A stretch of 64,000 nucleotides of DNA from Bordetella genomosp. 5 (GTDB taxonomy: Bacteria > Pseudomonadota > Gammaproteobacteria > Burkholderiales > Burkholderiaceae_B), in contig NZ_NEVN01000013.1 in the NCBI RefSeq assembly GCF_002261475.1, positions 1-64,000 on the forward strand, read 5' to 3'. Both the position numbers and the translations under genes were made by a program. The number at the start of each line of letters is the position of its first letter. Position 1 is the first letter of the stretch. The notes under the pieces were generated by a model. That model ran no database searches. It saw only the letters and a list, made by a program, of their open reading frames with translations, and was not told the DNA's origin. Of the stretch, positions 15,332 to 44,901 are shown in pieces.

Positions 15332-15336
15332 GGCGA

Positions 15337-24650: not shown

Positions 24651-25307
24651 GCCCAAAGATAGCGCGAAGAGGCGCGCCCGCGTGGGGCTCATCACCCTTT
24701 AGCGACCGTCGTTGCTCCCTGGTGAAGTCCTATTGGCACCGCATGGCGCTACACACAATGGGCAGCCAGGGAGGTGGTCATTGCCTACTATTTTCCTCGC
24801 ACCTTGCCACCTCGAAGCATTCCGCCGCAGAAACTGCTTTCGACCCGCGTTGGTCGATGGCAAGCTGCGGAGCCAGCGCGAATTGTGTTGTAGTGCCCTA
24901 CGGAACGATGGAGGGCTAGAAGCATCATGCGTATGCAGAGACCGTCATTGTTAGGGCGCCACAGGCCGAAGCAACGAGCACAGGCCGGCCAGCGTTCACA
25001 TCCAGCGCTGTCTGGAGAACTTGTGCAGAAGAGCCGGTGTTCTCCGAAATTTCGCTCCGTTAACACTGAATTCGTTGAGTGCCTACCCCCTTCTGCGCTG
25101 GCGCGGTACTATCCTTCAGGTTTTTCAAAACGTAAGCGGGCTGTCGCAATGCGCCAAAGCCGATTGAAGGCGACCGCCCCGATATATAGAGGGCACGCGC
25201 TGGATTGTTCCAGCTTTGCGTAGTCATAACGAGCGTTCAGTTAACGCTCTATGGTCGGTCACTTGGGCGCTCATCTGGGCGAAAACGGCAACTAGAGGAA
25301 GGGAAAG

Positions 25308-28300
25308 GTGGACGTTTTTCAGTTTCGCGAGCACATCGTTGCCGAATATAGAGAGTTCACCCGCAGCTTCACTCGTATACGCTCAGACGATATTCGGGCA
25401 CATGTTGACCGTGAGTACGAAAGTCAACGCTATTGGCCTGAACCCTTAATTCAAATTAACCCCACCTACCGGTCCGGAGGGACGGTAGATGACCTCGTGC
25501 GCGCGGGACAGTTGAGCCCAGAATGTTCGAGCATCTTCAGGCTAGGAAAATCCGCAACATCCACCGGGGTAACGCTACCGCTGCACAAGCACCAGGCTGA
25601 AGCCATCAGTTTGGCCTTGGCGGGTGAGAGCTATGTTCTAACAACTGGCACTGGCTCGGGTAAGTCACTCAGCTATTTCATCCCTATCGTCGATGCTTGC
25701 CTGAAGGCAAAACGCGCGGACCCGACCCCGCGTACGCGTGCGATAGTTATCTACCCGATGAACGCACTGGCCAACTCCCAGCTTGAGGAGTTGAAGAAAT
25801 TCTTAGGGTCAGACGCGTCCACGCGAGCAGTTTCTTTTGGTCGATATACGGGACAGGAGTCGGACGAAGAGCGGCAAGCTATGGCCGCACGCCCCCCAGA
25901 CATACTGCTAACAAATTTCATGATGCTTGAGTTACTAATGACCAGGCAGAATGATATTGACAAAGCCGTAATGCGTAATGCTCAAGGCTTGCGCTTCCTC
26001 GTTCTGGATGAATTGCACACATACCGGGGGCGCCAAGGTGCAGACGTAGCATTGCTGGTAAGGCGCGTGCGCGAGGCGTTGTCTGAAGAACTCATTTGCG
26101 TTGGCACTTCGGCCACCATGGCGTCCGAAGGCACACAGATGGAGCGCAACGCCGTAGTGGCGAAGGTGGCCCGGAGGCTGTTCGGCACAGCAATCTCGGA
26201 CCGAAATATCATTACCGAGACACTTCGCCGCACGACGCCCGAGAGTCAGACGCTCGAAACCGTGAGGAACAAACTGAGGGACGCCATCCGAGCTGGCGTA
26301 CCGACGGACCTCAGCTATGACGCCATGGCCGCCCATCCGATGTCGGTGTGGGTCGAGCTTACCCTGGGCCTGACATACGAGGACGACAAGCCGCGTCGTG
26401 CACGTCCGCGCACGCTGGCAGATGCATCGCAGCGGCTGCACGAAGCCTCTGGCGAACCCATCGAGAGCTGCCTGACCTATCTGCAACAGTTCATGCTGCG
26501 CGCCTACGCAGTCACGAACGAGACTGGCAAAAGTCTCTTTGCGTTCAAGCTGCACCAGTTCATCGCTGGGGGTGGAAAGGTATACACGACACTCGAGGCA
26601 GCAGGAAACCGAGCCATTACGCTGGACGGCCAGCAGTTCGTCTCCGGTGATGACGACCGGCAGCGGCGGTACTTCCACGTACATTTCTGCCGCGACTGCG
26701 GCCAGGAATACATCCCCGTCTGGGACACCGAAGGCCCAGAAGGCCGAGGATTTGCGGTTCGCAGCATCGACGAGCGACAGCACGACGACGACGCGGTCAA
26801 GTTTGGATTCCTGATGCCCGACGGCCGCGGCCTGTGGGAACCGGAGGTAATTGAACGCTACCCTGAAACGTGGCTGGAAGAGCGGGTTGATGGGGAGTGG
26901 CGCATCAAATCGGCCCAGCGCAAGTTCGCGCCGCAAGCTGTCAAGGTTCGACCCGACGGGATTACGGCTACCGACAAGGGTTTGCAGGCATGGTTCATTC
27001 CCGGCGCCTTCCGCTTTTGCCTGGCATGTGGCATCTCGCACACCTCATCCGGCAAGGACGCACTGCGGTTGACCTCCTTATCAGGTGAAGGTCGTAGCTC
27101 AGCCACGACGATGCTTACGCTGTCGGCACTGCGCTATTTGTACGAGCAGGACCAGCAGCTTTCCTCCGAGGCCAAGAAGGTCTTGGGTTTCTCCGACAAC
27201 CGGCAAGACGCCGCACTGCAGGCGGGGCACTTCAACGACTTCTTGCAAGTGCTGCTGACCCGCGCGGCGCTGCTGTCGGCCGTGAATAAGGACGGCGGTC
27301 AGGCTCTTTCCGAGCGCGAAGTCGCCAGCGCGGTCTTCGAAGCCTTGGGATTTCAACGCGATGACCCGGCTGTGCGAGCGGAATACATGCAACAGCCCGA
27401 GGTCAAGGGCAACACGCGCCGGCAGGTACAGGAGGCCATGAGAGGCATTCTGGGCTATCGGACCTACTTCGACTTAAGGCGCGGCTGGCGATACAACAAC
27501 CCCAACCTTGAACAGCTGGGGCTAGTCCGCATTGGCTACCAGGACATCGAAGACCTGGCTGCCGACGCTACAGAATGGGCCGAGGCACCCCAAGTCTTGC
27601 AGGCGGCCACGCCCGCTGAGCGGACCTTGGTTCTGCGCGCGTTGTTCGACTTCATGCGCCAGGGGCTTTGCATCGCCACGCGCTACCTTGACCGTACCGA
27701 GCTCGAGCAGTTGCGTACGCAGAGCTACGCCAACCTATGCGAACCTTGGGGATTCACCGAGGATGAGCGACCAGTTCCGGCGCGATGGTTCGTCACCTCG
27801 CGTCCGAGCGAAGAGACCGACCGCCGTGGGCGTCGGTTGCAACTGGAAGATTTTCTGGTCATCGGTTCGAGTCGCTCTCGCCTAGGGAGGCTGCTGCGCC
27901 AAGGCAGCACATGGGGCGGCGGTAATCCGTTCTACAAGCACATCAATGACCAAACCTACCCGGATGTCATCTCGGCGTTGCTCAAGGCTGCCGAGTCCTA
28001 CGGTCTGGTTAAGCGCGAAGAAACGGATGTCGGCCTAACCGGCTGGCAGCTCAACGGTACCGCGCTGCTGTGGGAGCCAGGTTCGGGCCAGAGCCTGCGT
28101 CAAGCCGAAGACAACGAGTTTTTCCGTACCCTCTACCGTAACATCGCCGGTCTATTGGCAAATCCGGTGCACCAGCTCTTCGATTTCGAAGCTCGCGAGC
28201 ACACGGCCCAGGTCGAGCAAGACGACCGGCTCGAGCGCGAAGCCCGTTTCCGCTACACGGATAAGGACCGCGATGAGTTCCGCAAGAAGAACGGCGTTGA

Positions 28301-30650
28301 GCTGGAATGGCTGCCCGTGCTGTTCTGCTCGCCGACCATGGAGCTGGGCGTTGACATCTCCTCGCTGAATACCGTCTACATGCGCAACGTACCGCCAACA
28401 CCGGCCAACTACGCGCAGCGTAGCGGACGTGCGGGGCGAGCCGGGCAGCCTGCTCTGGTCATCACGTATTGTGCGTCGCAGAGCCCGCACGACCAATACT
28501 ACTTCCGAGACCCCGTCCGCATGGTGCATGGCCAGGTCAATGCTCCAACCCTGGACCTGGCCAATCTGGAACTGGTGAAGAGTCACATGCATGCTATCTG
28601 GCTCGCTGAGACAGGCAAGCGCCTGGGCAACAGCGTGCGTGACTTGCTGGATATGAACCAGCCGGAGGCGTTGCCAGTCACTGAAGAAATGACGGCAGAC
28701 CTCGACAAGCCGGAAGCCAAGAAGCGAGCCCACCAGCGCGGCCTCAAGGTTTTGGGCATGTTGGCCTCCGAGCTCACGCCCCAAAACGCTCCGTGGTACA
28801 GCGAGCACTGGGCTGAATCCGTTTTCCAGCGTGCGTATCACGAATTCGACGGCGCACTGCAACGCTGGCGCGACCTCTACCGTGCGACGGCGCAAGCCAT
28901 CGAGCTGAACTTCAAAATAGAGAACAACCCGGCAGCCAGCGAGCGCGAGCGTCGCGAAGCCCAGCAGCGCCACAATGAGGCCCGCAAGCAGCGTGACCTA
29001 TTACTAGCCGGCGACAGCGCCTTCAACTCCGACTTCTACACCTATCGCTACCTGGCCTCCCAGGGCTTCCTACCAGGCTATAACTTCCCGCGCCTGCCAC
29101 TGCTGGCCTACCTACCTGCACGCCGCGGCTCCATCGGCCGCGAGAGCTTCCTGTCTCGCCCACGCTTCTTGGCGCTGGGTGAGTTCGGCCCCTATAGCCT
29201 CATCTACCACGAGGGCAGCCAATACCGCGTGACCAAGGCGCTGCTGACCATCACGGGCCAGGACCAAGTAACCCAAGGCGCAAAGCTGCCGACCGAAGTC
29301 GCACGCCTGTGTCCGGCCTGCGGTTATGGCCACTTCCGGTCCCAGCGGGATTCAGACCGCTGCGTCTCTTGTGGAGCCTCGCTCTCGGGAGCTAAGGACG
29401 TCAAGAATCTTTACCGCATCGAGAACGTTTCCACCAAGCGGGCTGAGCGCATTACCGCCAACGAAGAAGAGCGAGTGAGGCAGGGGTACGAGATGCAGAC
29501 CACCCTGCAATTTGCCGAGGCCGAAGGCAAGCTGCAGATGGTCACTACGGTCGTTGAAGATAGCCAGGGGCCTCTGCTTGAGATGCAGTACGGTCCCGCT
29601 GCCACGGTCTGGCGGATGAACTTTGGCTGGCGACGCCGCAAGGAGAAGTCAATCCAAGGCTTCATGATGAACCCTGTAACCGGCCACTGGGTTGGCGGCG
29701 TCGACGATGGCAACGGAGTGACTGAGCAAGAGGGCGAGGCACCACCTGACAAGACTCCGCCGCAGCGCATCGTGCCCTACGTCGAAGACCGCCGGAACAT
29801 CCTCATCGTAAGGCCGCACAACCGCTTTGGCGAGCTTGCGGCTGAGACTCTAACCACCCTGCAGTACGCGCTTAAGCGCGGTATCGAAGCGGTCTACCAG
29901 CTCGAGGAAAGCGAGTTGATGGCCGAGCCACTACCCACGCGTGATAGCCGCCAGTCCATCCTGCTATTCGAGGCTGCCGAGGGTGGCGCTGGCGTGCTCA
30001 CACGCCTGGCCACTGAACCTGAGGCTCTGTCCGCCGTCGCAGCCAAGGCACTGGAAATCATGCACTTCGTGGCACCGCCCGCTGGCCAGCCATGGGCCAG
30101 GAAGAAGGTGACCGAAGAGCTGGACCATGCTGGCAAGCCGCTGTGCGAAGCTGGCTGCTACCGCTGCCTGCTCTCTTACTACAACCAGCCTGACCACACT
30201 CTAATCGACCGAAAGGACAAGAACGCTGACGGGCTCTTGCTGGACATCCTCTGTCGTCTAACGGCCGCTCGGGCTCACCAGGGCACGCACGGTCGGGCCC
30301 CGCAGGAACACGACGCCGAGCTCGCCCGGACGGCCGGCAGCACGCTGGAGCAAGCCTGGCTGGGCCATGTCAACGACCATGGGTACCGCAAGCCCGACCG
30401 CGGCCAGCACACTATCGCCGACGCCAATGCCTGCGCCGACTTCTTCTACGACGACCTGAACCTCGCCGTCTTTATCGACGGCCCATATCACGAAACCGAA
30501 ACCCAGCGTGCCGCTGATGCGGCCATCGACCGAACTCTCGACGAACTGGGCTATCTGGTGGTGCGCTTCCCGAAAGAACAGGCCCAATGGCCCGATATCT
30601 TCAAGAACAACGCCGACCTCTTTGGTCCAGGCAAGGCCTGCAAAATATGA
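25308..30650 (+). CDS. Helicase-DUF1998-nuclease-like defence protein
   Basis: 1780 aa, GTG start with GAGGAAGGG upstream. An N-terminal SF2 helicase has Walker A TGTGSGK (Lys119), DELH at 234-237 and motif VI QRSGRAGR at 1037-1044. A four-Cys zinc site follows (Cys1335, 1338, 1352, 1355), then a DUF1998 region with Cys1613, 1617 and 1620 (CEAGCYRC). The C-terminus (about 1690-1780) looks like a Vsr/DUF559-type PD-(D/E)XK fold with Asp1711, FIDG at 1722-1725 and His1728. DUF1998 helicases act in DISARM (DrmA/DrmB) and Druantia (DruE). Here helicase, DUF1998 and a putative nuclease share one chain. It overlaps the next gene by 4 nt. Confidence 0.85.
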   Translation: MDVFQFREHIVAEYREFTRSFTRIRSDDIRAHVDREYESQRYWPEPLIQINPTYRSGGTVDDLVRAGQLSPECSSIFRLGKSATSTGVTLPLHKHQAEAISLALAGESYVLTTGTGSGKSLSYFIPIVDACLKAKRADPTPRTRAIVIYPMNALANSQLEELKKFLGSDASTRAVSFGRYTGQESDEERQAMAARPPDILLTNFMMLELLMTRQNDIDKAVMRNAQGLRFLVLDELHTYRGRQGADVALLVRRVREALSEELICVGTSATMASEGTQMERNAVVAKVARRLFGTAISDRNIITETLRRTTPESQTLETVRNKLRDAIRAGVPTDLSYDAMAAHPMSVWVELTLGLTYEDDKPRRARPRTLADASQRLHEASGEPIESCLTYLQQFMLRAYAVTNETGKSLFAFKLHQFIAGGGKVYTTLEAAGNRAITLDGQQFVSGDDDRQRRYFHVHFCRDCGQEYIPVWDTEGPEGRGFAVRSIDERQHDDDAVKFGFLMPDGRGLWEPEVIERYPETWLEERVDGEWRIKSAQRKFAPQAVKVRPDGITATDKGLQAWFIPGAFRFCLACGISHTSSGKDALRLTSLSGEGRSSATTMLTLSALRYLYEQDQQLSSEAKKVLGFSDNRQDAALQAGHFNDFLQVLLTRAALLSAVNKDGGQALSEREVASAVFEALGFQRDDPAVRAEYMQQPEVKGNTRRQVQEAMRGILGYRTYFDLRRGWRYNNPNLEQLGLVRIGYQDIEDLAADATEWAEAPQVLQAATPAERTLVLRALFDFMRQGLCIATRYLDRTELEQLRTQSYANLCEPWGFTEDERPVPARWFVTSRPSEETDRRGRRLQLEDFLVIGSSRSRLGRLLRQGSTWGGGNPFYKHINDQTYPDVISALLKAAESYGLVKREETDVGLTGWQLNGTALLWEPGSGQSLRQAEDNEFFRTLYRNIAGLLANPVHQLFDFEAREHTAQVEQDDRLEREARFRYTDKDRDEFRKKNGVELEWLPVLFCSPTMELGVDISSLNTVYMRNVPPTPANYAQRSGRAGRAGQPALVITYCASQSPHDQYYFRDPVRMVHGQVNAPTLDLANLELVKSHMHAIWLAETGKRLGNSVRDLLDMNQPEALPVTEEMTADLDKPEAKKRAHQRGLKVLGMLASELTPQNAPWYSEHWAESVFQRAYHEFDGALQRWRDLYRATAQAIELNFKIENNPAASERERREAQQRHNEARKQRDLLLAGDSAFNSDFYTYRYLASQGFLPGYNFPRLPLLAYLPARRGSIGRESFLSRPRFLALGEFGPYSLIYHEGSQYRVTKALLTITGQDQVTQGAKLPTEVARLCPACGYGHFRSQRDSDRCVSCGASLSGAKDVKNLYRIENVSTKRAERITANEEERVRQGYEMQTTLQFAEAEGKLQMVTTVVEDSQGPLLEMQYGPAATVWRMNFGWRRRKEKSIQGFMMNPVTGHWVGGVDDGNGVTEQEGEAPPDKTPPQRIVPYVEDRRNILIVRPHNRFGELAAETLTTLQYALKRGIEAVYQLEESELMAEPLPTRDSRQSILLFEAAEGGAGVLTRLATEPEALSAVAAKALEIMHFVAPPAGQPWARKKVTEELDHAGKPLCEAGCYRCLLSYYNQPDHTLIDRKDKNADGLLLDILCRLTAARAHQGTHGRAPQEHDAELARTAGSTLEQAWLGHVNDHGYRKPDRGQHTIADANACADFFYDDLNLAVFIDGPYHETETQRAADAAIDRTLDELGYLVVRFPKEQAQWPDIFKNNADLFGPGKACKI

Positions 30651-33496
30651 ACGCTCCGATACCGGAATTTCTTCCGGGCAGTCTAGTTGAGGCCCGCGGC
30701 CGCGAGTGGATTGTCCTGCCAGAGTCTGACCAACAGACCCTGAGGTTGCGCCCATTGGGTGGAGGCGAGCGCGATGAGACGCTCATCTATCTGCCGCTGG
30801 AACGCCAGCCTGTGCAGCCAGCGACCTTTCCCTGGCCCTCCGTCGCCCAGGCGCGCAACCACTCTGCCAGCCAACTGCTCTTGGATGCCCTGCAGCTCAA
30901 GCTGCGCAGCGGCGCTGGCCCCTTCCGCAGCTTCGGCAATATCGCCGTCGAGCCGCGCGCCTACCAACTCGTGCCCTTGCTGATGGCGCTGAAGCAGCCT
31001 GTGGTGCGCCTGCTGGTGGCCGACGACGTGGGTATTGGTAAGACCATCGAAGGCGCACTCATCGCCCGCGAGCTGCTCGACCGGGGGGAGGTCCAACGCA
31101 TGACCGTGCTGTGCCCGCCGCACCTGTGCGAGCAGTGGCAACGCGAGTTGGCCGAGCGCTTTCACATTGCTGCCGTTGTGGTGCGCTCCAACACCGCCGA
31201 CCGGCTGGAGCGCGACCTGCCGCCCGGCACTTCGGTATTCCATGCTCACCCCTACACGGTGGTGAGCCTGGACTACATCAAGTCCGAGCGCCGTCGCGAG
31301 GCCTTCCAGCGCTTCTGCCCAGAGTTCGTCATCGTCGACGAGGCCCACACCTGCACCCAGTCCGGCCAAGGCCGTCAGCAGCGCTACCAGTTGCTCAAGG
31401 GCCTGGCGGCCGACGCGAAGCGGCACCTGGTGCTGCTGACGGCCACGCCGCACAGCGGCGACGAGGAGGCGTTCTTCAACCTGCTGGGCCTGCTGCGCAC
31501 CGAATTTACCCAGCTGAAAGACCTGCCCGCTAGCCAGCGCAGCGACCTGCGCGAAGACCTTTCGCGCCACTTCGTCCAACGCCGTCGGCCTGACATCGCC
31601 GAATGGCAGGACACCTCGATGTTCCCGGACCGCAAGTCCGCCGAAATCACCTACAAGCTCACTGGCGCTTGGGGCCAGCTCTTCAACGACGTGCTGGCCT
31701 ACGCTCGGGAGCTGGTCGAGCGCTCCGAAGGGCAGGCGCTGCGCGAGCAGCGCATGAACTGGTGGGCCGCGCTGGCCCTGCTGCGCTGCATCTCGTCGTC
31801 ACCCGCTGCGGCCGTCAACGCACTGCGAACCCGGCTGCAGGGTGCGCTGCCTGAGGCGGAGGGGGCTGAAGCTACGTCCCTGGAGGAGTTCGAGGCTCAG
31901 GCCAGCGACCGCGTGCTTGACGGCACCGACGATGCACTGTCCCCCGACGACATGGAGCCCGGCGCCCAGACCGAAGACAGCCAGCGCCTGCAAGCGTTGA
32001 TGACCAGCGCTGCGGCGCTGGCCGGCCAGCAGAGCGACCCCAAGCTCGCCAAGCTGCAGGAACACGTGTCGCTGCTGCTAAAGGAGGGCTTCCAGCCCGT
32101 CGTCTTCTGCCGCTACATCGCCACGGCGCACTACCTCGCAGCAGCCCTGCAGGAGAAGTTCAAGACAGCCAACATCAAGGCGGTGACCGGGGAGCTGACG
32201 CCCGACGAGAGGGAGGCGGCGGTCGACCAGCTTGGCGAGAGCGAGTCCCGCGTCCTGGTGGCCACGGACTGCCTGTCCGAGGGTATCAACCTGCAAGGCC
32301 TATTCACTGCGGTTGTCCACTACGACCTCAGCTGGAACCCGACCCGGCACGAACAGCGCGAAGGCCGCGTGGACCGTTTCGGCCAGAAGGCGCGCGAGGT
32401 GCGCAGCACCATGCTGTACGGCGAAGATAACCCCGTCGACGGCGCAGTCCTGCAAGTCATCCTGCGCAAGGCCGAGAGCATCCGCAAGGAGCTGGGCGTT
32501 CTCGTGCCCATGCCCGACAACGAGGGCAAGCTCACCCAGGCGCTTATGAACGCCGTGCTGCTGCGCAAGGGCCATCTCAACGCCCAATCTCAGTTGGACC
32601 TGTTCGGCGAGGCGGCCAACGAAATCGACCTGGCCTGGCAGAGCGCCAAGGAGAAGGCCAAGCAAAACCGCAGCATCTTTGCCCAGCGCCGCCTGAAGCC
32701 CGAAGACGTGCTGCCTGAGTGGCGCAAGTCTGCCACCGTGCTGGGTGGCGAAGCTGAAGTTAAACGTTTCGTCAGCCGTGCCGCAGCACAGCTCGGTGCA
32801 CCGCTGCAACCGGTGAAGCAGCACTTCAAGCTGCTCACCGAGCACCTGCCGCCTGCCGTGCGCGAGCGCCTCGCAGCCGAAGGCCTGTCCAACACGCTGC
32901 GCATCGACTTCCACCAGCCCGCTGCCCAGGGCACCAACTTCGTCCACCGCACGCACCCGCTGGTGTCCGTACTGGCCGACACGCTGCTGGAGCAGGCACT
33001 GGACGATGCCAGCACCTCCACCGATGACGCCGCGGTCGCTCGTGCCGGCGCTGCTTTCGTGCAGGGCGTGTCGCTCAAGACCACCGTGCTGCTGCTGCGC
33101 ATCCGTCACCAGCTCACCGTCACACATGACAGCCAGACACGGCTACTGATGTGCGAGGAAGCCGTCGCCGTGGCCGCCAGCGGTTCCGAGCCCTTTACCG
33201 AGCTGGCCTCCGAAATGACCCGCCAACTGTTGGGCGCCGAAGCCACCCGCAACATGCCCGCACCGTTGCGTGACCGTCAACTGCAGACGGCCCTCGACGC
33301 CTTGCCTGGCTGGCGGCCCCAGTTGGAGGCCATGGCCAAGGCTCGCGCCCAGGCGCTGCTGGCTGACCACCGCCGCGTACGCGAGGCGGCCGAAGGCCGC
33401 GGCAGCTACCAAGTCACGGCCAGCCTGCCTGTCGACGTGATGGGCCTGTACGTGCTGCTGCCGGATGCAGCCACCACCAACGCCAGGGGAGCCTGA
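30647..33496 (+). CDS. drmD: DrmD-like SNF2 helicase
   Basis: 949 aa. The start overlaps the upstream stop as ATGA. An SF2/SNF2 ATPase: Walker A DDVGIGKT (Lys132), DEAH at 231-234, and motif VI EQREGRVDRFGQ. The N-terminal leader PGSLVEARGREWIVLPES and the FRSFGNIAVEPRAYQLVPLL segment match my memory of class 1 DISARM DrmD proteins. Such helicases are thought to translocate on incoming phage DNA. No nuclease domain is visible. The name is tentative because no separate drmA, drmB or drmC is present. Confidence 0.8.
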   Translation: MNAPIPEFLPGSLVEARGREWIVLPESDQQTLRLRPLGGGERDETLIYLPLERQPVQPATFPWPSVAQARNHSASQLLLDALQLKLRSGAGPFRSFGNIAVEPRAYQLVPLLMALKQPVVRLLVADDVGIGKTIEGALIARELLDRGEVQRMTVLCPPHLCEQWQRELAERFHIAAVVVRSNTADRLERDLPPGTSVFHAHPYTVVSLDYIKSERRREAFQRFCPEFVIVDEAHTCTQSGQGRQQRYQLLKGLAADAKRHLVLLTATPHSGDEEAFFNLLGLLRTEFTQLKDLPASQRSDLREDLSRHFVQRRRPDIAEWQDTSMFPDRKSAEITYKLTGAWGQLFNDVLAYARELVERSEGQALREQRMNWWAALALLRCISSSPAAAVNALRTRLQGALPEAEGAEATSLEEFEAQASDRVLDGTDDALSPDDMEPGAQTEDSQRLQALMTSAAALAGQQSDPKLAKLQEHVSLLLKEGFQPVVFCRYIATAHYLAAALQEKFKTANIKAVTGELTPDEREAAVDQLGESESRVLVATDCLSEGINLQGLFTAVVHYDLSWNPTRHEQREGRVDRFGQKAREVRSTMLYGEDNPVDGAVLQVILRKAESIRKELGVLVPMPDNEGKLTQALMNAVLLRKGHLNAQSQLDLFGEAANEIDLAWQSAKEKAKQNRSIFAQRRLKPEDVLPEWRKSATVLGGEAEVKRFVSRAAAQLGAPLQPVKQHFKLLTEHLPPAVRERLAAEGLSNTLRIDFHQPAAQGTNFVHRTHPLVSVLADTLLEQALDDASTSTDDAAVARAGAAFVQGVSLKTTVLLLRIRHQLTVTHDSQTRLLMCEEAVAVAASGSEPFTELASEMTRQLLGAEATRNMPAPLRDRQLQTALDALPGWRPQLEAMAKARAQALLADHRRVREAAEGRGSYQVTASLPVDVMGLYVLLPDAATTNARGA

Positions 33497-33500
33497 CGCC

Positions 33501-36500: not shown

Positions 36501-38474
36501 GCCCTCATCAACCCGAATACCCGAACCTGCCCGGTGTTCCGCAGCGAGCGCGACGCAGAGCTGACCAAGAAGTTTTACCGCTCTGCGCCCGTGCTAATCA
36601 ACGAGGAGGTAATTGGTGACGATGGAGAGGTGCAGCAGCCCGACGTGAACCCGTGGGGCATCCGCTTCCGGACGATGTTCCATATGTCTGGCGACAGTGG
36701 CCTGTTCGCTGATAGGCCCGCTGCCTCTAGCATGCCCGACCGCTTGCCGTTGTACGAGGCGAAGATGATTCACCAGTTCGACCACCGGTGGGCGACCTAT
36801 GTAGAGGCTGCCAACGGAGTGGCGGGTGAAGTGGAAACTGACGACGTGAGCGGCGAGCAGAAGGCAGACCCCACCTTCACCGTGCGCCCGCGGTACTGGG
36901 TGGACGAGCGTGAGGTGTTGGCGCGTATCGCCCGCGTGCCAACCCGCGTTGCGCGAGCTTGGCTGGCACTGCACGCCGCGCGAGAGGCAGGGAATGCGAG
37001 CGCTCAGGATTCCGCGTTAGGCGACTTGTTGCTGGCATTGGCGCAATGGGTGGCTGGCGAGTTGTTCCATCGTGCGTCAGGTGCTGCACCCGCGCCCGAC
37101 GGGTGGACGCCGAGCCAGGCCCAGCCACACATCGCACCTACGGAGGCGCAACTCAAGACTCAATTCGCGCGCCTGAACGAAGTGCTACGCGGCGAGGGTT
37201 TGACGACCAAGAAGGCCTTAGCTGAGTTCCCCAAGTGGGCTACGCAAAACCAAGATGCCCGCTTGGCAGACGACGAACTGACGACCTTGGCAGAGGTGCT
37301 ACGAGCTGCATCACTGGCGGATACTTTGCGGACGCTGCTCGACGTCTGGATGGACCAGCGCAGTCCACGGTGGTTGATGGGCTTTCGGAACATCGCCCGA
37401 AGCACCGACGAGCGCAGTTATATCGCTTCGGTCATGCCGCGTGTGGCTGTGGGGCACTCAATGCCGCTAGTTGCGAGTGACCAGTCACCAGGTCTCTGCG
37501 CCTGTCTTCTTGGGCTACTCGGCTCGTTGAGCTTTGACTATGTCGTTCGTCAGAAGCTTGGTGGGACGAATATGACCTTCGGATACGTCAAGCAGTTTCC
37601 TGTCCCTCCGCCAGACCGCTTTTCTGACGCAGACTTCGCCTTCATCGTCCCCCGCGTCCTCGAACTCACCTACACCGCGAACGACCTGGAGGCTTGGGGC
37701 CAGGACCTCGCCACCTATGACCCGCGCCCAGCCGCAGAGCAGGGTCAGCCCTTCGCCTGGAACACCGAGCGTCGCGCCCAACTGCGCGCCGAACTCGATG
37801 CCTACTACGCCCGCCTCTATGGCCTCACCCGCGACGAACTGCGCTACATCCTCGACCCCAAAGACGTGATGGGCGCTGACTACCCCAGCGAGACCTTCCG
37901 GGTGCTGAAGGACGGCGAAATTCGGGCCTACGGTGAATACCGGACGCGGAGGCTGGTGCTGGAGGCGTGGGACGAGCAGGCCAGCGTGTCATCCGCGCCG
38001 CGGCCGGTGCCAATGTCGTACTCCGAGCTCGGGATGATTCGCAATGCCGAAGAAGGCCGCGTGGCTGGCTTGGTGATAGCACTGGTCGTCGAGCGGACGG
38101 GGGGCAGTTCGCTGGCGGACATCCAGTCAGCGGTGGCTACTTTGGCCGCGGCAGCGAACTATCTGGCAACTGTCGACGGTGCACGCCTCAAGGCCCTGCA
38201 AGGTTCACTCGGAATTGCAGACGTGGCGCTACTCCTGAGCCGCATCCTGCCCATCGTGCAGCGCCTAGTTGGCGTTGATGTGCTCGTGCGTTCAACCCGG
38301 GGTGGCGAGGTCTTCTATGCGCGCGGCGCCGGTGCGCCACCTAGCGATGTTATCCAACTACCAGAGCATCCCGAAACTGCCCGGCTTCTGTGGCTGGCAG
38401 AGAGCCGGCGCATGGCATCAGAAGCCGAGAGAAGCGCGACCGTGCCCGCAAGCTCTAAGGCCACTGGCACATAG
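33501..38474 (+). CDS. Large N6-adenine DNA methyltransferase (Eco57I/DrmMI-like)
   Basis: 1657 aa. SAM-binding motif DPACGSG at 530-536 and catalytic NPPW at 793-796 define a gamma-type N6-adenine methylase. About 480 residues precede the methylase core and about 800 follow, the latter probably carrying target recognition. Start at 33501 with AGGGGAG upstream, 4 nt after drmD. In DISARM the partner methylase marks host DNA as self. PglX/BrxX of BREX is a relative, but brxC and pglZ are absent. No nuclease motif typical of type IIG enzymes was seen at the N-terminus. Confidence 0.85.
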   Translation: MAKKPLHQLAYRAIRIEGGLLPAEELTRLTLLADPKASEQTEPQYRIAKGLKLRDEIARDFKIALTLWHDFQSLRQRKDVQAHDVTVREWLLPLLRDVLHFHDAARCQAIQHAGHHYAVGHAGNGGRVPLVFAGFDQPLDSAAERFGETDPDTGKTRRRSPFMLAQETLNASDASLWAIVSNGLTLRILRDNASLTRPAYIEVDLEALFTEELLPDFSAFWLLAHASRFGAAETPPTDCPWERWRAAGQQAGVTVRGKLRYQVAEALRALGTGFLSHPANGTLRAALQSMQDGYDRQAFFEELLRLVYRLIFLATVEDRRDRGTGERLVFAPDASDEAKDRYLSGYSLTWLRERAVRRSQHDRHADLWQALSITFGSLSTGEPALGLPALGGLFDAEQCLYLDSAQLNNRHLLAAVFQLGWFRADGGLSRVNYRDMGPEELGSVYESLLELVPDLQGLASHATARLAFVGDDERDASTKGNTRKLTGSYYTPDSLVQELVKSALEPVIAQTVKANPEQPVQALLALTVCDPACGSGHFLLSAARRLADEVALHRAAAEREGGAPTPSDYRHALRDVVGRCIFGVDKNPMAIQLAKTALWLEAYSPDRPLSFVDHHLRVGDALLGVLDPKVLEDGIPDEAYTALSGDDKAMASALKKQNKADLKSWRAIAGGDLLTKAGLATRAVSVDTLDDDTPAHLAAKRQAWTTAQTEAQRSSFARLADTYVAAFLAPKLAGAGDTVPLSGYLWGVLSGQAPKTEVENVAQALCRQHSVFHWWLAFPQVAARGGFSVMLGNPPWERIKLQEEEFFATRSPLVAMAKNKAERAQRIEWLREGVLLHRVNPDLERAEGLTPPNRAEMALYASFIAARRGAEAASLFAHDSRRYPLTGVGDVNTYAMFSELFLQGTAPSGRAGFIVPTGIATDDSTKAYFERLAVGGFLRSLLCLENEEFVFPSVHHSFRFALLTLGGQPSGGPASLVFFARQPEQIHDTRRRFQLTSDEFALINPNTRTCPVFRSERDAELTKKFYRSAPVLINEEVIGDDGEVQQPDVNPWGIRFRTMFHMSGDSGLFADRPAASSMPDRLPLYEAKMIHQFDHRWATYVEAANGVAGEVETDDVSGEQKADPTFTVRPRYWVDEREVLARIARVPTRVARAWLALHAAREAGNASAQDSALGDLLLALAQWVAGELFHRASGAAPAPDGWTPSQAQPHIAPTEAQLKTQFARLNEVLRGEGLTTKKALAEFPKWATQNQDARLADDELTTLAEVLRAASLADTLRTLLDVWMDQRSPRWLMGFRNIARSTDERSYIASVMPRVAVGHSMPLVASDQSPGLCACLLGLLGSLSFDYVVRQKLGGTNMTFGYVKQFPVPPPDRFSDADFAFIVPRVLELTYTANDLEAWGQDLATYDPRPAAEQGQPFAWNTERRAQLRAELDAYYARLYGLTRDELRYILDPKDVMGADYPSETFRVLKDGEIRAYGEYRTRRLVLEAWDEQASVSSAPRPVPMSYSELGMIRNAEEGRVAGLVIALVVERTGGSSLADIQSAVATLAAAANYLATVDGARLKALQGSLGIADVALLLSRILPIVQRLVGVDVLVRSTRGGEVFYARGAGAPPSDVIQLPEHPETARLLWLAESRRMASEAERSATVPASSKATGT

Positions 38475-38488
38475 TAAGAGAGGACGCT

Positions 38489-40480
38489 ATGTCAACTTGG
38501 CTCAAGGCAATTAAGCCGGTCCGCACGCAGCCCAGGCTGTGGGTTGAAACCGTTTGGTTCGTCGAGTCCCGTGAGCCGTTGGCCGTCACGCGTACCATCG
38601 ACCTGCATCCCGGGCTGAACATCGTCTGGGCCAAGGAGTCCGCTTCGAATGATGCCTCTGGCCTGGCCAGCGCAGGCCACGGCGTGGGCAAGACGTCGCT
38701 TTGCCTGTTGCTGAGGTACGTGCTGGGTGACGATGCACCGACCATCGCCACGTTGCGGAGCAAGGCGGCAGGCAGCTTTCCCAAGGGCGGCGTGGCGGCG
38801 AAGGTCCATGTGGATGGTGCCTTCTGGCTCGTCTTCCGGCCGTATGGTTCGCACAGCCGCTCCATGGCCGCTCAGTGTGACGCACTGGACCAGTTGCTCG
38901 ATGGCACCGCGCCGAACGACTTCGACGGTTATGGTCGCGCACTGGAGCAGTTCTCGATAGGCCAGCTTGCCGCCCCCACCTTGCCCGGCACGAATCAGGC
39001 GCTCGAGTGGCGTCACCTGCTGGCTTGGTGCATTCGGGAGCAGCGAACCCGCTTCGACGGCTTCTACCACTGGCGCGAGGGCGAAGGCCTGGGCTTCAAG
39101 CGCTCACGGCGGGACCCGCCGCTGCTGGTCGGCTCCGTGCTGGGTTTGGTAGACCAGGAACTGGACCGCCTGCTGCGTGACATCGAGGCCAAGCAGAAGC
39201 AGGTTGACCAGTGCAAGGAGCGCATCCCCGAGCTCGAGAGAGCACCAGCCTTTGCTCTGGCCCATGCTGACCGCCAACTGCGCCAGAAGGTGCGGGCTGA
39301 AGAGGACGAGCCCGTCTTCGCGACCACCGTCGGCGAATCAGTCGAGTCTCGTGTTCAGGCGGCGCTGCAGAAAGCCGAATTGGACGAGCGCAGATGGGAG
39401 ATGGAAGTGGTGCAGGCGGAGGAGGCGCTCGCAATGGAGCAGGTCCGCCTATATGAGCTGACGAAGGCCCGCGACCGAGCAGAGCTTGACGCCGGAATCG
39501 CCAAGTCCCTCGTGAGCGCAAACCAGGCCGACTTTGCGCGGCTGACCAAGCTGCGGGAGCAACTGGAAGGGCTGGACGGCAGTCGGTGCGAACATGGGGA
39601 TGTGGAGTTCAGCGCATGTCATCACATTCAAGAGCGCAAGTGCGCGGTCAATATGACGTGGTTCCAAGACGGTCGGCAGGTCAAGGCAAATGCGGCTGAA
39701 CTCGCCAAGCGCCACGAAGCTCGGAAGCGCGAGTTCGACAGTGCGATGCAGGAGGTCGCCGACCACGCGAAACGCATCTCCGGGAGGAAGACCGAGCTTG
39801 GACAACTACGTGTTCGTATCGCCACCAGCGAGAGCGCTCGGACGCTCTTGAAGCAGTCCTGGGATGAGCTTCAGGCGAAGCACGCCCGACGGAACCAAGG
39901 CGGTGACACAGCCGAGCTGGTTGCGGCTCGGAAGCAGCTTCAGGAGTTCGAAGCAGCGCTGGGCTCTCTGCGGGCGGCAGAGGTCAGCCGACGGTCTCAG
40001 CAGTCGTCGAGAGTCGACGCCATTAAGGCCCTGACGGCCACCGTATCAGCCAGGCTCCTCGGCGCGGCAGGATATGCGCGGTTCATTCCGGGGCATGAGG
40101 TTCGACCCTTCGAAGTAGCGCGCGGCGGTGAGGCCTACCAAGTACTGGAAGTACTGCTCGGCGACATCGTCTGCCTGCTCGACTCCGCCGTGTCCAAGGC
40201 CAGCAAACACCCGGGCTTTCTCGTCCATGACTGCCCGAGAGAGGCGGACATGAGCGAGCTCCTGTACCGCGAATTCTTCCTCGCAGCCGCCGAGGCGGCG
40301 GAGCAGCTCAGCGAGAGTGGCATGGCGCCGTTCCAGTTCATCGTCACCACAACCTCGGCGCCGCCGAAAAAACTTGGTGGAGCGCCGCACGTCGTCCTGG
40401 AGTTGGCGCCGGGGGCGGATGAGGCGCTGCTGTTCAAGCGGCAGTTGGCGCCTGAGCTGACGGGGTTTGATTTGGTTTGA
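38489..40480 (+). CDS. SMC/Rad50-like ATPase with Cys/His cluster
   Basis: 663 aa, 14 nt after the methylase, ribosome site GAGAGG. An N-terminal ABC half has Walker A GHGVGKTS (Lys68). A central coiled coil (about 220-500) is interrupted by Cys367-x9-Cys377-His-His-x5-Cys385, possibly metal binding. The C-terminal half has FLVHDCPRE (Asp581) in the Walker B position. The layout resembles RecF/Rad50-type and DUF2326-like ATPases. It may sense or tether DNA ends for the other subunits. I do not recognise the exact family. Confidence 0.75.
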   Translation: MSTWLKAIKPVRTQPRLWVETVWFVESREPLAVTRTIDLHPGLNIVWAKESASNDASGLASAGHGVGKTSLCLLLRYVLGDDAPTIATLRSKAAGSFPKGGVAAKVHVDGAFWLVFRPYGSHSRSMAAQCDALDQLLDGTAPNDFDGYGRALEQFSIGQLAAPTLPGTNQALEWRHLLAWCIREQRTRFDGFYHWREGEGLGFKRSRRDPPLLVGSVLGLVDQELDRLLRDIEAKQKQVDQCKERIPELERAPAFALAHADRQLRQKVRAEEDEPVFATTVGESVESRVQAALQKAELDERRWEMEVVQAEEALAMEQVRLYELTKARDRAELDAGIAKSLVSANQADFARLTKLREQLEGLDGSRCEHGDVEFSACHHIQERKCAVNMTWFQDGRQVKANAAELAKRHEARKREFDSAMQEVADHAKRISGRKTELGQLRVRIATSESARTLLKQSWDELQAKHARRNQGGDTAELVAARKQLQEFEAALGSLRAAEVSRRSQQSSRVDAIKALTATVSARLLGAAGYARFIPGHEVRPFEVARGGEAYQVLEVLLGDIVCLLDSAVSKASKHPGFLVHDCPREADMSELLYREFFLAAAEAAEQLSESGMAPFQFIVTTTSAPPKKLGGAPHVVLELAPGADEALLFKRQLAPELTGFDLV

Positions 40481-40539
40481 TGTCCCGTGCCGACGGGGAC
40501 TCGGCACAGGGAGCGCAACAAGAACGAAGGGAGAGCTGA

Positions 40540-43500
40540 GTGTCTGTGGTCAAAGAAGAGTATCAAGACCTCCCGCCGAAGGGCGAGAAGCTATGCGATG
40601 TCGTCGTGCTAGCCCAGGCATGGAAGAAGTCGCACACCTACATCCGTCGGCACAACTGGTATGCCGACGTCCTTGAACTGGACGCCTCGACCATCGACCT
40701 GGAGCACCATCTGCTTCGCTGGGCAGACGAGGTCGGCCAAGCCGAGTTTCGGCCGAAGGATTTGCTGTTGGTTCCCGCGCCCAAGAACGCGCGTTGGTGG
40801 TTTCGCCCAGCCCCAACCATCACATCTCTCGACCAATTGTTGGACCTTGACTTGAACGACCTTGGCGCCGAGCCGAAGTTCGAGGACTGGACGCCCAGAG
40901 AGCAAGGCCCGTCAGACTCATCGGATGGGCAGCCAGGACCCGCGCAACACCGATTGAGGCTGCGGCCGCTTGCTCACCTGTCGATTCGTGACCAGAGCCT
41001 GGCGACGACGGTAATGATGTGTCTGGCGGAGACCGTGGAATCCGCACAAGGCGATACGACGGGCACCGATGTCGCGGCGATGCGGGCGGCCGGAGTGGTG
41101 AGCTACGGCAACCGCCTGCATTGCACATGGGTCACCAATGCCGGTGCTAGGCCTCGAGCCCAGTTTTCGTGGGGCAATAGTCGGACCTATCGCCAGTACT
41201 TCCAGGACTACCGAACCTTCCTTGCCCGACCTCGTCGAGTGTGTGCGGAACTCACATCTCAGTTGCCGGCGCGGCGGGAGCTGTTTGTGGTTTCGTTGGA
41301 TATCAAGTCGTTCTTTGACCATGTCGACCGCGATGCTTTGCTCGAGGAACTGAAGGGCCTGGAGCTTGAGCACAGGACGGTGCACGGCCTCCCTGACTCT
41401 GCGGTGGCGGACGCGGCATTCTGGGAGCGAGCAGCCCGAATCTTCTCGTGGCAATGGCGCGCTGAAGACCAACAGGAGGCGGGACTGATTCGTGGAGCAG
41501 AGCATCAAACGCTTGAACTGGGACTGCCCCAAGGGCTAGTCGCATCGGGATTTCTCGCGAACGCCTATCTCGTTCGATTCGACCGCGACATGCAGAAGTC
41601 TGCAGCTGAGGGAGCCACGATTGGCGACGACGTCAAGCTGCTGGACTACTGCCGCTATGTCGACGATATGCGCGTCGTCGTTGAGACTGGGAGCGGGCCT
41701 AGCGGACTTGGTCAAGCTGCGGTGCTGGAGTATGTCAAGCGACATGTGACTTCGGCACTGAAAGCACACTGCGACCGCATGGGCGCTCGGACCGCACTTG
41801 AGCTGTCGTTGGAAAAGTGCGTTGCTACTTCATACCGGGCGATTTCGGCGCAAAGCCACGTATCGGCACTGATGGAGATGCTCAACGCAGAGTTGAGCGG
41901 GACCTTCGACTTGGAATCGTTGGCGCAGGCTGCAGGCGGCCTGGACGGGCTTCTGTGGACTTCCGAGCAGATTGACAGCGTCGACGACCCTAAACCCTCT
42001 CGACTGGCACTGGCGACGGTTGCCGTACCTAACACTGACGTGCGAGACGATACCGTGAAGCGGTTCGTCGCGACGCGCATTGCCCAGCTGATGCGGCACC
42101 GGCTGGCGATGACGGACCTTGAAAGCACGGCGGGCTCATCCGAAACAGTCGGCGACCAAGTGACACAGGGCGTGGTCCTGTCGCATGAGTTCGAGTCCAC
42201 AGCACGCAAGCTCATCAAGTGCTGGGCCGAAAACCCCGCACTGGTCTTGCTGCTGCGCTGCGGACTGGACCTGTTTCCTCATCCCCGCCTGCTGGGTCCG
42301 GTGACTGAGGCGCTCGATATCAAGCTGTTCGACCTAGCGGCTGACCTTGACGCGGCAAAGCTCAGGCAGGTGCGCGTGGCAGAGTACGTCCTGGCTGACC
42401 TGTTGCGGGCTGGTGCCGTGGAGACCGGCTTCCGTGACCCCAACGAGTATCCGGAAGGCGTGGACATCCAGGGCTACCGCGAGGAGCTTGGGGGAATCGC
42501 GCGGCGCGTCCTGACCGAACGAACCGCGTCGCCCTGGTACCTTCGCCAGCAGGCCCGTCTGTATCTGGCTTCCATCGGCGATGCGTCCCTCGCTGCAACG
42601 GTCGAACCTGCCCCCGAGGTACAGATGTACGCAGCGTTGCAGCGCGTGGCACTGTTCGAACCGGCTCAGGGGGCTGAGCTTAGAAGCTCCATACCTTTGG
42701 CCATCGTGGCGCAGCAACTGCAGCCCAATGCCCGGCGTTTCGGTGTGTGGTTGTCGGATGGACTCAGGCGCACCGACGACCAAGCTGTCCGGGAGACAGT
42801 TGTGCGCACCATGGCGTTGAGTCGCCCAGACTTGCTCATGGCGGCACTGAATGGGCGCCGCGCATCAAACTGGCGGCAGTTCGTTCCGGCTGCGCTGGTC
42901 CAAGTCAACAAGCGGTCGAGCAGTTCGCGGAGGCACTCGACCAAGCTGAAACGCGCTCAATCGCTTCTGCAAGTCATCAGTGAGTCGAACAATCTCTTCG
43001 ACCAGGAGAACGCTCTTCTCATGCTCGCGGACGCGTTGCTGCGTCATCCCGGAGCCGAAGAACAATTGGCAGCCGGTCGCAGCGCCTCTGACATCCTGCT
43101 TCGTTGCGAGGACTGGTCACGGCTTCCGGAGTTGCCTGAGCAGCCAGGCTTCCTGCGAGTGGAGTCGATTGAGGCAGGTGATGTGGCAGACCCGTTGTAT
43201 GCCAGCCCACCTTGGGTTGCGCCCGAGAAGGCCTGGCTCTACGGGCTGGGCCGCATCCTGCGCTCGGCCCTGACGGGGGAGTTTGACTTCACGAGCCGTC
43301 GCTACCTTGTGACTGAGGAGGTAGGTCGTTACAGTGGTTTGCGCAGCACTTGGTTCAAACGTCGCTTTGGCCTCTTGAACTCGGGCCGAGGTATCCTGGA
43401 TGAGCCTGCGCCGTTGTCGCCGTGGCTTTCCAGCCTCTTGTCGACGCTCCTTCAATGGCCTGGAGTTGAGTTCCGGACAAGTGCTGCTTCGGCCGCCGGC

Positions 43501-44514
43501 AATGTCAGAACCGCTGCCGAGCTACTCGCTCTTGTTCAAGAGCGCATCCTGGTGCAGCGCAGCTTGTACGGTCGTCGAAGCAAGACGCCAATGTACGTGG
43601 TACCAGTCGATGACCATGAGCCCTTGCAAGACCGACCTCTGCGCGTCGCCATCGTGCAGCCAATGCGACCCCAGAGAAGTGAATTCAACGACAAGGACCC
43701 TACGCACTGGACGCCGGGGACTCTGGCTGAGCACCGACGCCACTTGGCAGAGGTGTGCCGCCTGACTTACCAGCAGCTCAAGACCTGGGCGTCGGCGAGC
43801 CCTGCAACGGCATCCGACAAGACCAATGCCCCGTTGGTCGACATAATCCTCTTCCCCGAGCTGTCCGTCCATCCCGAGCACGTGTTCCTTCTGCGACGGC
43901 TTTCAGACAAGGCAGGAGCCAACATCTTTACTGGCTTGACGTTCCTTCATTCGCATAAGGCGGGTGGCGTCGTCAACCAAGGCCTATGGCTCATTCGAAC
44001 CGAATCTCCAGACCATGGGCGGGCGTTCCAGTACGTTTGGCAGGGCAAGCATCATCCGATGAAGCTTGAGGTGAAGATGGGGGTGAAGGGGCACCGGCCA
44101 CATGTGACTTTGGTCGAGCTGCCAATTGGCGCCAAATCGCGGACACGTGTGGCTGCAGCCATTTGCTACGACGCCACAGACTTGGACCTCGTAGCGGACC
44201 TTCGCGACAAGTCAGACGTGTTCTTGGTCGCCGCACTGAATCAGGATGTTCAAACCTTCGACAACATGGTGGCAGCGTTGCACTTCCACATGTACCAGCC
44301 GGTGGTTCTCGCCAACTCAGGCGAGTTTGGTGGTTCAACAGCTCAAGTGCCTCTGCCGAAGCACGAGCGTCTTATCGCGCACGTGCATGGAAGTCAGCAG
44401 GTCGCTGTGAGTGTTTTTGAAGTTGACCCGTCGCTCTTCAAGACCACATCAGCAGCAAAGAACCCAAAGGTTCTGAAGGCACCTCCGGCGGGATACGGCG
44501 GACGCCCGCTGTGA
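40540..44514 (+). CDS. Reverse transcriptase-nitrilase fusion (DRT type 1/UG1-like)
   Basis: 1324 aa, GTG start with AAGGGAG 7 nt upstream, 59 nt after the ATPase gene. The RT core is at about 200-470: motif A VSLDIKSFFD (Asp254), motif B LGLPQGLVASGF and motif C YVDD at 373-376 (Asp375, Asp376). A long alpha-helical middle (about 480-1040) is followed by a nitrilase/CN-hydrolase domain (about 1050-1300) with Glu1107 (LFPELSV), probable Lys1170 (GKHHP) and Cys1209 (AAICYDA), so all three catalytic residues are present. RTs of the UG1 class with a C-terminal nitrilase are known antiphage proteins (DRT type 1). Confidence 0.9.
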   Translation: MSVVKEEYQDLPPKGEKLCDVVVLAQAWKKSHTYIRRHNWYADVLELDASTIDLEHHLLRWADEVGQAEFRPKDLLLVPAPKNARWWFRPAPTITSLDQLLDLDLNDLGAEPKFEDWTPREQGPSDSSDGQPGPAQHRLRLRPLAHLSIRDQSLATTVMMCLAETVESAQGDTTGTDVAAMRAAGVVSYGNRLHCTWVTNAGARPRAQFSWGNSRTYRQYFQDYRTFLARPRRVCAELTSQLPARRELFVVSLDIKSFFDHVDRDALLEELKGLELEHRTVHGLPDSAVADAAFWERAARIFSWQWRAEDQQEAGLIRGAEHQTLELGLPQGLVASGFLANAYLVRFDRDMQKSAAEGATIGDDVKLLDYCRYVDDMRVVVETGSGPSGLGQAAVLEYVKRHVTSALKAHCDRMGARTALELSLEKCVATSYRAISAQSHVSALMEMLNAELSGTFDLESLAQAAGGLDGLLWTSEQIDSVDDPKPSRLALATVAVPNTDVRDDTVKRFVATRIAQLMRHRLAMTDLESTAGSSETVGDQVTQGVVLSHEFESTARKLIKCWAENPALVLLLRCGLDLFPHPRLLGPVTEALDIKLFDLAADLDAAKLRQVRVAEYVLADLLRAGAVETGFRDPNEYPEGVDIQGYREELGGIARRVLTERTASPWYLRQQARLYLASIGDASLAATVEPAPEVQMYAALQRVALFEPAQGAELRSSIPLAIVAQQLQPNARRFGVWLSDGLRRTDDQAVRETVVRTMALSRPDLLMAALNGRRASNWRQFVPAALVQVNKRSSSSRRHSTKLKRAQSLLQVISESNNLFDQENALLMLADALLRHPGAEEQLAAGRSASDILLRCEDWSRLPELPEQPGFLRVESIEAGDVADPLYASPPWVAPEKAWLYGLGRILRSALTGEFDFTSRRYLVTEEVGRYSGLRSTWFKRRFGLLNSGRGILDEPAPLSPWLSSLLSTLLQWPGVEFRTSAASAAGNVRTAAELLALVQERILVQRSLYGRRSKTPMYVVPVDDHEPLQDRPLRVAIVQPMRPQRSEFNDKDPTHWTPGTLAEHRRHLAEVCRLTYQQLKTWASASPATASDKTNAPLVDIILFPELSVHPEHVFLLRRLSDKAGANIFTGLTFLHSHKAGGVVNQGLWLIRTESPDHGRAFQYVWQGKHHPMKLEVKMGVKGHRPHVTLVELPIGAKSRTRVAAAICYDATDLDLVADLRDKSDVFLVAALNQDVQTFDNMVAALHFHMYQPVVLANSGEFGGSTAQVPLPKHERLIAHVHGSQQVAVSVFEVDPSLFKTTSAAKNPKVLKAPPAGYGGRPL

Positions 44515-44517: not shown

Positions 44518-44901
44518 ATGCCTGCGAAGCGCAGCAAAAGAGTTCATACCTTTATGACTAAAACCGTGTTCAAAGAAATGCACTACAGCCTTGATGACCT
44601 CATCGGCAATATCGGCCTTCCCAACATCCAGCGCCCCTTCGTCTGGGCCAACGCCAAAGTCCGTGACCTGTTCGACTCGATGTATCGGGGTAACCGGTCG
44701 GCTACTTCTTGTATTCCCGGAGAGTCCCGTGGTGGACCTCTTAGACCCACAGCCCAAGGCCAGAAGACGGCGCAGGAGCGGCATCACCTGTTCCCCAAGC
44801 AGTTCTTGAAGAAACAGAGCATGGAGAGGGTGAACGACATCAATCAGATTGCCAATTACGCGCTGGTGGAGTGTGAGAGGCTAGTTTGGACGCGGGCATG
44901 A
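44518..44901 (+). pseudogene. Internally deleted DUF262 (GmrSD-type) gene
   Basis: The 5' part encodes a DUF262 N-terminus (MHYSLDDLIGNIGLPNIQRP then FVWANAKVRDLFDSMYRG). At about 44690 a shifted frame continues as PVGYFLYS, also typical of DUF262. The 3' part, QERHHLFPKQFL..., then NQIANYALVE, matches the HNH-like end of DUF262/DUF1524 proteins. Most of the roughly 600-aa protein is therefore missing. GmrSD-like proteins are modification-dependent restriction enzymes. It starts 3 nt after the RT-nitrilase stop. Confidence 0.75.

Follow-up and report, generated by a model that had tools for sequence, protein, structure and literature searches.

In a 64,000-nucleotide stretch of DNA from Bordetella genomosp. 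5 (the window), a run of genes in a tRNA-Phe island probably consists of an ARMADA Type I system (genes 1 to 3) together with gene 4, for a Lamassu-like SMC ATPase, and a gene for an HNH nuclease. The interval between gene 4 and the HNH gene would be a cargo slot, filled here by a DRT1 reverse transcriptase (RT)-nitrilase (gene 5) and by what is left of a GmrSD gene. On this reading, a defence operon has a favoured site at which other defence systems nest and at which their gain, loss and scars can be followed, and the swapping of guests in one fixed host operon would offer a way to study the evolution of defence islands and the cooperation of restriction with abortive defence.

The gene run and its core

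The island, of approximately 28.9 kb, is delimited by a perfect pair of 47-bp direct repeats (22979–23025 and 51875–51921), the right copy of which lies, to within 1 nt, inside a tRNA-Phe gene (51876–51951, minus strand). A first-pass annotation had described five open reading frames on the plus strand of a tRNA island, with gaps of −4, +4, +14 and +59 nt, and we reproduced the location as well as all coordinates and gaps. However, the run does not end with the RT gene at 44514, as that annotation had it, but spans at least 25308–45626. After a gap of 3 nt, the RT gene is followed by what remains, in frame, of a GmrSD (HEC-05-like) gene (44518–44901, plus strand); this remnant is itself overlapped by 4 nt by the HNH gene (44898–45626, plus strand). 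A scan for promoters and terminators returned no promoter-like site in 24300–44000, which does not favour our explanation, and 13 terminator-like sites versus 15.3 expected.

Gene 1 (25308–30650, plus strand) encodes a YprA/DruE-like helicase with the Pfam domains DEAD, Helicase_C, MZB (DUF1998) and, at its C-terminus (residues 1708–1758), a nuclease-type DUF559 (E 0.00015, above the Pfam cut-off). DUF559 is presumably Vsr-like, which would offer a possible link between this C-terminus and Vsr-type nucleases. The protein matches DruE1 in PADLOC (4.8e-92), with DruE scoring above DrmA among the matches listed, and YprA in the PDB (6znp, 2.4e-23). Gene 2 (30647–33496, plus strand; the ATG start at 30647 is taken from the translation) encodes an SNF2-type helicase that resembles DpdE (7e-210), DrmD (1.6e-89) and BrxHII (1.5e-63) in PADLOC. 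Gene 3 (33501–38474, plus strand) encodes a large N6-adenine methylase of the DrmMI/type IIG/PglX-like kind, with matches to Eco57I and N6_Mtase in Pfam and to DrmMI in PADLOC (1.7e-61), and with the motifs DPACGSG and NPPW. The product of gene 4 (38489–40480, plus strand) is an SMC ATPase with a coiled coil, the invariant residues C367 and C377 and an LmuB/YydD-like fold; LmuB is its sole PADLOC match (1.8e-8), profile and fold agree on LmuB, and its relatives likewise match LmuB. The HNH protein matches HNH_2 in Pfam (1.1e-11) and 6yex in the PDB (3.2e-27), and its model has two fold matches at E 0.001, both to VcaM4I; fold comparison assigned no fold to its N-terminal 90 residues. The HNH gene is likely to be a core member that closes the run.

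Relation to known defence systems

Genes 1 to 3, which the first-pass annotation had labelled DISARM-like, are better read as ARMADA Type I. In that system (Bell et al. 2025 preprint, PMC12458937), the gene order is YprA-like, BrxHII-like and PglX-like, and the YprA-like protein carries DUF1998 and a C-terminal nuclease domain; genes 1 to 3 have the same order, and gene 1 has both DUF1998 and a C-terminal nuclease-type domain. Class 1 DISARM shares with our locus a DrmD-like helicase, a DrmMI-like methylase and a YprA-type helicase. However, a separate DrmB gene is absent from the run, the MZB domain being fused into gene 1 instead, no PLD family (DISARM DrmC) was found at E 0.001 in genes 1 to 5 or in the two ORFs after the RT gene, and gene 1 is closer to DruE than to DrmA among the matches listed. 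We rejected DISARM as a name for the lack of a separate DrmB and of the PLD nuclease DrmC. Plain Druantia, a system of DruE along with other Dru proteins, was a further candidate name; among the PADLOC matches listed, gene 1 fits DruE best.

The tRNA-Phe islands described in the ARMADA preprint hold ARMADA Type II. The terms ‘SMC’, ‘reverse transcriptase’ and ‘nitrilase’ are absent from its main text, and ‘HNH’ appears in its references only. We propose the SMC and HNH genes as two further core genes of one branch of ARMADA Type I. Gene 4 resembles LmuB of Lamassu (LmuABC) in both profile and fold, but an HNH gene stands in place of LmuA and LmuC, neither of which is among the PADLOC matches listed for the run. 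A literature search, covering mostly titles and abstract starts, found no description of this gene set in the titles, abstract starts or passages retrieved.

The interval between gene 4 and the HNH gene

With gene 4 as seed, we collected 50 loci, a sample that gives no measure of how often ARMADA Type I systems include gene 4; on plasmids, some ARMADA-like triplets lack gene 4, or both gene 4 and HNH. (The gene 2 tree excludes loci lacking a gene 2 ORF, and the duplicates L078 = L016 and L079 = L012; these, like L120 = L047, were taken as duplicates because their contigs are equally long.) Since genes 1 to 4 recur together in 45 of the 50 loci, their association is not due to chance, and an HNH gene follows gene 4 in 43. 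The slot is empty in 16 loci. DRT1 occupies it in 10, and as a remnant in one more, while other loci have GmrSD, PDC-S39, HEC-03 with an RNA ligase, Mokosh, PDC-M04, HEPN-RES or Schlafen there. These patterns suggest that the gene 4–HNH interval is a cargo slot that gains and loses complete defence modules.

It could be argued that the neighbouring systems are unrelated and adjoin each other just as defence-island genes ordinarily cluster, and that the slot has no special meaning. The cargo types are indeed typical of defence islands, and extra genes also occur elsewhere: between genes 2 and 3, a 475–507-aa ORF (L015, L043 and L080) or VapC genes (L090); between genes 1 and 2, an ORF of 281 aa (L007); and beyond HNH, GmrSD matches (L080 and L082). 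These placements also weigh against our own explanation, as does the fact that, across genomes other than that of the window, RT and gene 4 co-occur weakly (order p 0.037, family p 0.13), which would fit ordinary clustering. However, in 23 of the 43 HNH-bearing loci the space between these core genes contains whole labelled cargo, all labelled pieces are on the operon strand, and the scars are at this same place. Ordinary clustering is made less likely because gaps of more than 500 nt concentrate at gene 4–HNH (25/47 operons, versus 6/147 for the remaining intervals), and we consider it very improbable.

A different division of the run, into ARMADA Type I, cargo and an independent Lamassu-like system formed by SMC and HNH, is rather unlikely in our view, but draws on the LmuB/YydD-like fold and on a Paracoccus plasmid (L124), in which the SMC–HNH pair follows a 500-aa gene without a Pfam or PADLOC match, and where the 13 kb upstream contain no match to genes 1 to 3. 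On the other hand, HNH homologues follow genes 1 to 3 in L090 and L094, where there is no SMC match, so that HNH is linked to ARMADA even without SMC. In turn, each of the other five plasmid loci examined (L091, L095, L096, L122 and L123) has a relative of gene 4 next to genes 1 to 3. Seven plasmid records have an RT match, of which five were examined.

The reverse transcriptase and the possible role of guests

Gene 5 (40540–44514, plus strand) is a full-length match to Drt1a in PADLOC (1405 bits). It belongs to DRT1 (UG1), with RT and nitrilase in a single chain and catalytic motifs in both: YVDD in the RT, and Glu, Lys and Cys in the nitrilase. The nitrilase motifs and a C-terminal PAG motif are shared with the other DRT1s aligned. 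Here this DRT1 is cargo within the gene run of another system. Behind it, the GmrSD remnant aligns to residues 13–64 and 484–529 of a 600-aa relative.

The first-pass annotation had suggested that the five genes form one composite system. A restriction-like arm tightly spaced with a DRT1 RT-nitrilase stands, and is recurrent, but a fixed five-gene system is not supported. In 39 of the 50 loci there is no RT match in the slot, a few of these being truncated by a contig end, and other defence modules lie at the same position. In addition, three genomes of the family contain stand-alone RTs that are 84–85% identical to that of the window, and no relatives of gene 4 were found in these genomes. 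On the RT tree (which excludes L087, with 797 aa, and partial matches, and uses one unmended fragment each of the L041 and L013 RTs, which are interrupted by insertions), a clade of slot RTs only is rejected (p-AU 1.7e-50). A first tree with six stand-alone RTs had separated all slot RTs from the rest by one branch (93/94), but the slot-only lineage that this suggested was overturned once the family sample had contributed four more stand-alone RTs. Because these closely similar RTs stand alone and slot RTs do not form a clade of their own, the RT of the window looks like an exchangeable guest rather than a fixed component.

Slot RTs nevertheless cluster on the tree (3 changes versus 7.3 in shuffles), so an enduring association of the RT with the slot is possible, and this counts against our explanation to that extent. 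Together with the tight spacing, and with at most 135 nt separating the RT from the gene 4 match in 9 of the 10 RT-bearing loci, this clustering would suit an obligate composite in which the RT works jointly with helicases, methylase and SMC as an integral abortive arm. However, that reading is quite improbable given the loci without an RT, the stand-alone RTs and the absence of a slot clade; furthermore, passages of PMC13275509 describe a DRT1 that gives protection on its own, as one gene. Among 369 genomes sampled across the class, a full-length RT was found in the window's own genome only; the viral contig collection contained no RT relatives, and neither RT nor gene 4 had a match in phage records.

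As for how the locus might work, we infer a single predicted transcript, whose helicases and methylase would most likely recognise DNA as self or non-self and move along it, while the nuclease domain at the C-terminus of gene 1 would be one of the cutters. The SMC ATPase may clamp foreign DNA or DNA ends and control the HNH nuclease, and co-transcribed guests could serve as back-up layers, often abortive. A more speculative possibility, which we regard as doubtful, is that the gene 4–HNH interval is an evolved docking bay, that is, a conserved expression site in a restriction operon that recruits whole abortive systems onto the same transcript. The guest would then answer phage inhibition of the restriction arm, and the SMC ATPase may be a shared sensor that triggers different guests.

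Passages on BREX operons (PMC12839542), a paper with no occurrence of ‘reverse transcriptase’, describe GmrSD, HEPN and Schlafen as auxiliary or back-up effectors encoded inside core loci, a likeness to our locus that involves a different core. Hma was rejected as a name, since it carries an m5C methylase (HmaB) according to passages of PMC8565338, and gene 3 matches the N6-type Eco57I and N6_Mtase. The cargo of the slot nevertheless includes relatives of HEC-03 and HEC-05, an abbreviation that a table of PMC10855318 expands as ‘Hma embedded candidates’.

The gene run, its core and its island

The five ORFs in the first-pass annotation hold their positions and single strand when the ORFs of the window are re-read, as do the gaps of -4, 4, 14 and 59 nt, given starts at 30647 and 33501. 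The run was said to end at the reverse transcriptase (RT), but a GmrSD remnant and an HNH gene come after it. A 127-aa ORF (44518-44901, + strand) starts 3 nt past the RT and aligns to residues 13-64 (75% identical) and 484-529 (70%) of a 600-aa GmrSD relative; because both matched segments share one frame, we read it as an internal-deletion remnant of GmrSD. The HNH endonuclease gene (44898-45626, + strand; HNH_2, 1.1e-11) overlaps it by 4 nt.

In a Pfam search, gene 1 has DEAD, Helicase_C, MZB (DUF1998) and C-terminal DUF559 domains; its top PADLOC match is DruE (4.8e-92). Gene 2 matches DpdE (7e-210), DrmD (1.6e-89) and BrxHII (1.5e-63) in PADLOC, and gene 3, with DPACGSG and NPPW motifs, matches DrmMI and type IIG enzymes there. 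Gene 4, the SMC-like ATPase, has no match in a Pfam search and a single weak PADLOC match, LmuB. A PADLOC match to Drt1a spans the entire length of gene 5, the RT, which matches the solved DRT1 structure 9yfd at 2.7e-154.

Genes 1-3, initially called DISARM-like, agree with ARMADA Type I in order and best matches, on which the assignment rests. As described in the main text of PMC12458937, that system runs YprA-like, BrxHII-like, PglX-like, bears a C-terminal Vsr-type nuclease and has a YprA protein closer to Druantia's than to DISARM's. Neither SMC nor reverse transcriptase nor nitrilase is mentioned in the same main text, where HNH appears in the references only. Since ARMADA, assayed as Type II, is reported there to be direct and non-abortive, an abortive guest, the role proposed earlier for the RT as a back-up arm, would complement it.

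The tRNA island proposed around the run is real, its bounds being a perfect 47-bp direct repeat of tRNA-Phe sequence (22979-23025 and 51875-51921). Among its genes are those for a TrfA-like protein (23480-24382), a ParB-like protein (49202-50173) and a phage-type integrase (50252-51628). Near the latter, three consecutive - strand ORFs (45674-47953) resemble, by eye, fragments of a broken tyrosine recombinase, and a Pfam search of two of the three gave no match. A HAD-domain gene of RNA-repair type (HAD_SAK_2, 8e-30) lies at 47983-48528 on the + strand.

A cargo slot between gene 4 and the HNH gene

Fifty loci came from one scan of GTDB species genomes. Its seeds were exact peptide patterns from gene 4, so it reaches near relatives best. 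Each of genes 1-4 has a match in 45/50; in four of the others (L027, L030, L038, L049) the locus sequence starts within gene 3 or at gene 4; the fifth is L044, whose gene 1 match adjoins its gene 4 match. There, a single ORF (8831-10474) joins a partial gene 1 match to a match with the end of gene 4, as though a deletion had fused the two. Downstream of gene 4, an HNH homologue is present in 43/50 loci and was not seen in seven (L004, L008, L012, L025, L030, L039, L045), among which the sequences of L012, L030 and L039 end shortly past gene 4 or its cargo.

Whole cargo, labelled by BLAST and profile matches and hence by sequence rather than function, lies between gene 4 and HNH in 23/43 HNH-bearing loci. 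In 16 loci no more than 250 nt separate gene 4 from the start of the HNH match, two (L046, L049) hold remnants only, and nothing in the interval could be labelled in L024 and L044. The RT is found in ten loci (L003, L013, L014, L016, L018, L022, L035, L041, L047, L048), and L046 additionally has an RT remnant. Other cargo types are GmrSD/HEC-05, PDC-S39, HEC-03A/B with RNA ligase, HEPN-RES, Schlafen-AlbA and UvrD-like. Guests also share a slot: PDC-S39, a Mokosh pair (MkoA 1.7e-235, MkoB 1.1e-68) and GmrSD in L002, RT and PDC-M04A/B in L047, and RT and an NsnA/GmrSD_N-type gene in L041. The HNH-less L045 carries a UvrD-like, an AAA_5 and a McrBC-component gene. The UvrD/GajB-like cargo of L037 (12058-14718) and L045 (11962-14643) may be akin to ArmD of ARMADA Type II.

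All 54 labelled pieces, counting labelled ORFs only and including remnants and HNH-less loci, lie on the operon strand. Inserted ORFs interrupt the RT genes of L013 and L041, and those within the L013 insertion include opposite-strand ORFs. Scars of lost cargo are those of GmrSD in the window, L016 (preceding the RT) and L007, and that of L046, where the RT N-terminus runs into a gene 3-like piece. This junction of RT N-terminal and gene 3 C-terminal pieces (L046:12007-12252) is a scar of recombination between unlike genes.

We compared this interval with the other three across the window, the 50 loci and three further loci (L080-L082), counting gaps of >500 nt between neighbouring ORFs. Such gaps occur in 25/47 gene 4-HNH pairs versus 6/147 pairs elsewhere (1/48, 4/49 and 1/50 by interval; Fisher 2.4e-13, although the loci are non-independent). 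Cargo thus enters other intervals too, but rarely. Genes 2 and 3 are separated by an ORF of 475-507 aa in L015, L043 and L080 and by Phd/VapC-type genes in plasmid locus L090 (27728-28362), and genes 1 and 2 by an ORF of 281 aa in L007; L080 and L082 have GmrSD matches past HNH.

Association and history of the RT

Co-occurrence of RT and gene 4 across genomes was found with the window's genome included and weakened without it. Full-length RT (judged from match coverage; any match, 10 and 12 genomes), gene 4 and both occur in 4, 6 and 2 of 399 genomes in an order sample, and in 6, 8 and 2 of 268 in a family sample. Fisher values are 0.0011 (order) and 0.011 (family) with the window's genome, which had been picked because it has both genes, and 0.037 and 0.13 without it. 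In a class sample of 369 genomes, full-length RT was found nowhere but in the window's own genome. Slot occupancy is the stronger measure: the RT is in the slot in 10/50 loci versus full RT in 5/267 other family genomes (binomial 2.7e-8), or 9/49 with near-copies merged (3.0e-7).

On a tree of gene 2 (57 rows, built by a quick method), RT presence requires at least seven changes, a count that, like those on the RT tree, does not distinguish gain from loss. Three genomes of the same family have stand-alone RTs 84-85% identical to that of the window, which groups with them in a tree of 21 RTs (100/100). Their neighbours include AbiEii, TrbI and SIR2_2 genes; no core, HNH or other cargo query matched in the 19.9 kb around each, and gene 4 has no match genome-wide in the three. 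Slot versus stand-alone state requires three changes on this tree, compared with 7.3 for shuffled labels, so RT exchange is not free. A single clade of slot RTs was rejected on the same tree (p-AU 1.7e-50). The five plasmid DRT1s examined, out of seven records, all have contexts other than the slot.

Plasmid relatives and probable exchange of gene 4

The wider family on plasmids is looser in gene content. Genes 1-3 occur with no SMC or HNH match in L088 (truncated by the start of its record), L089 and L093, with HNH and no SMC match in L090 and L094, and with both in L091, L095 and L096. L122 and L123 have genes 1-4 and no HNH match, a DUF262 gene coming next in L123, and in L092 a gene 1 relative is the sole annotated member of the set. 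L124 has SMC-HNH without genes 1-3; this pair (11267-15692), on a conjugative Paracoccus plasmid, lies beside a 500-aa gene with no match in Pfam or PADLOC, and no ARMADA gene was matched in the 13 kb upstream.

How close a locus is to the window depends on the gene: identity is 77% for gene 2, 35% for gene 4 and 63% for the RT in L048, and 80%, 52% and 42% in L014. By these differences, gene 4 itself has probably also been exchanged.
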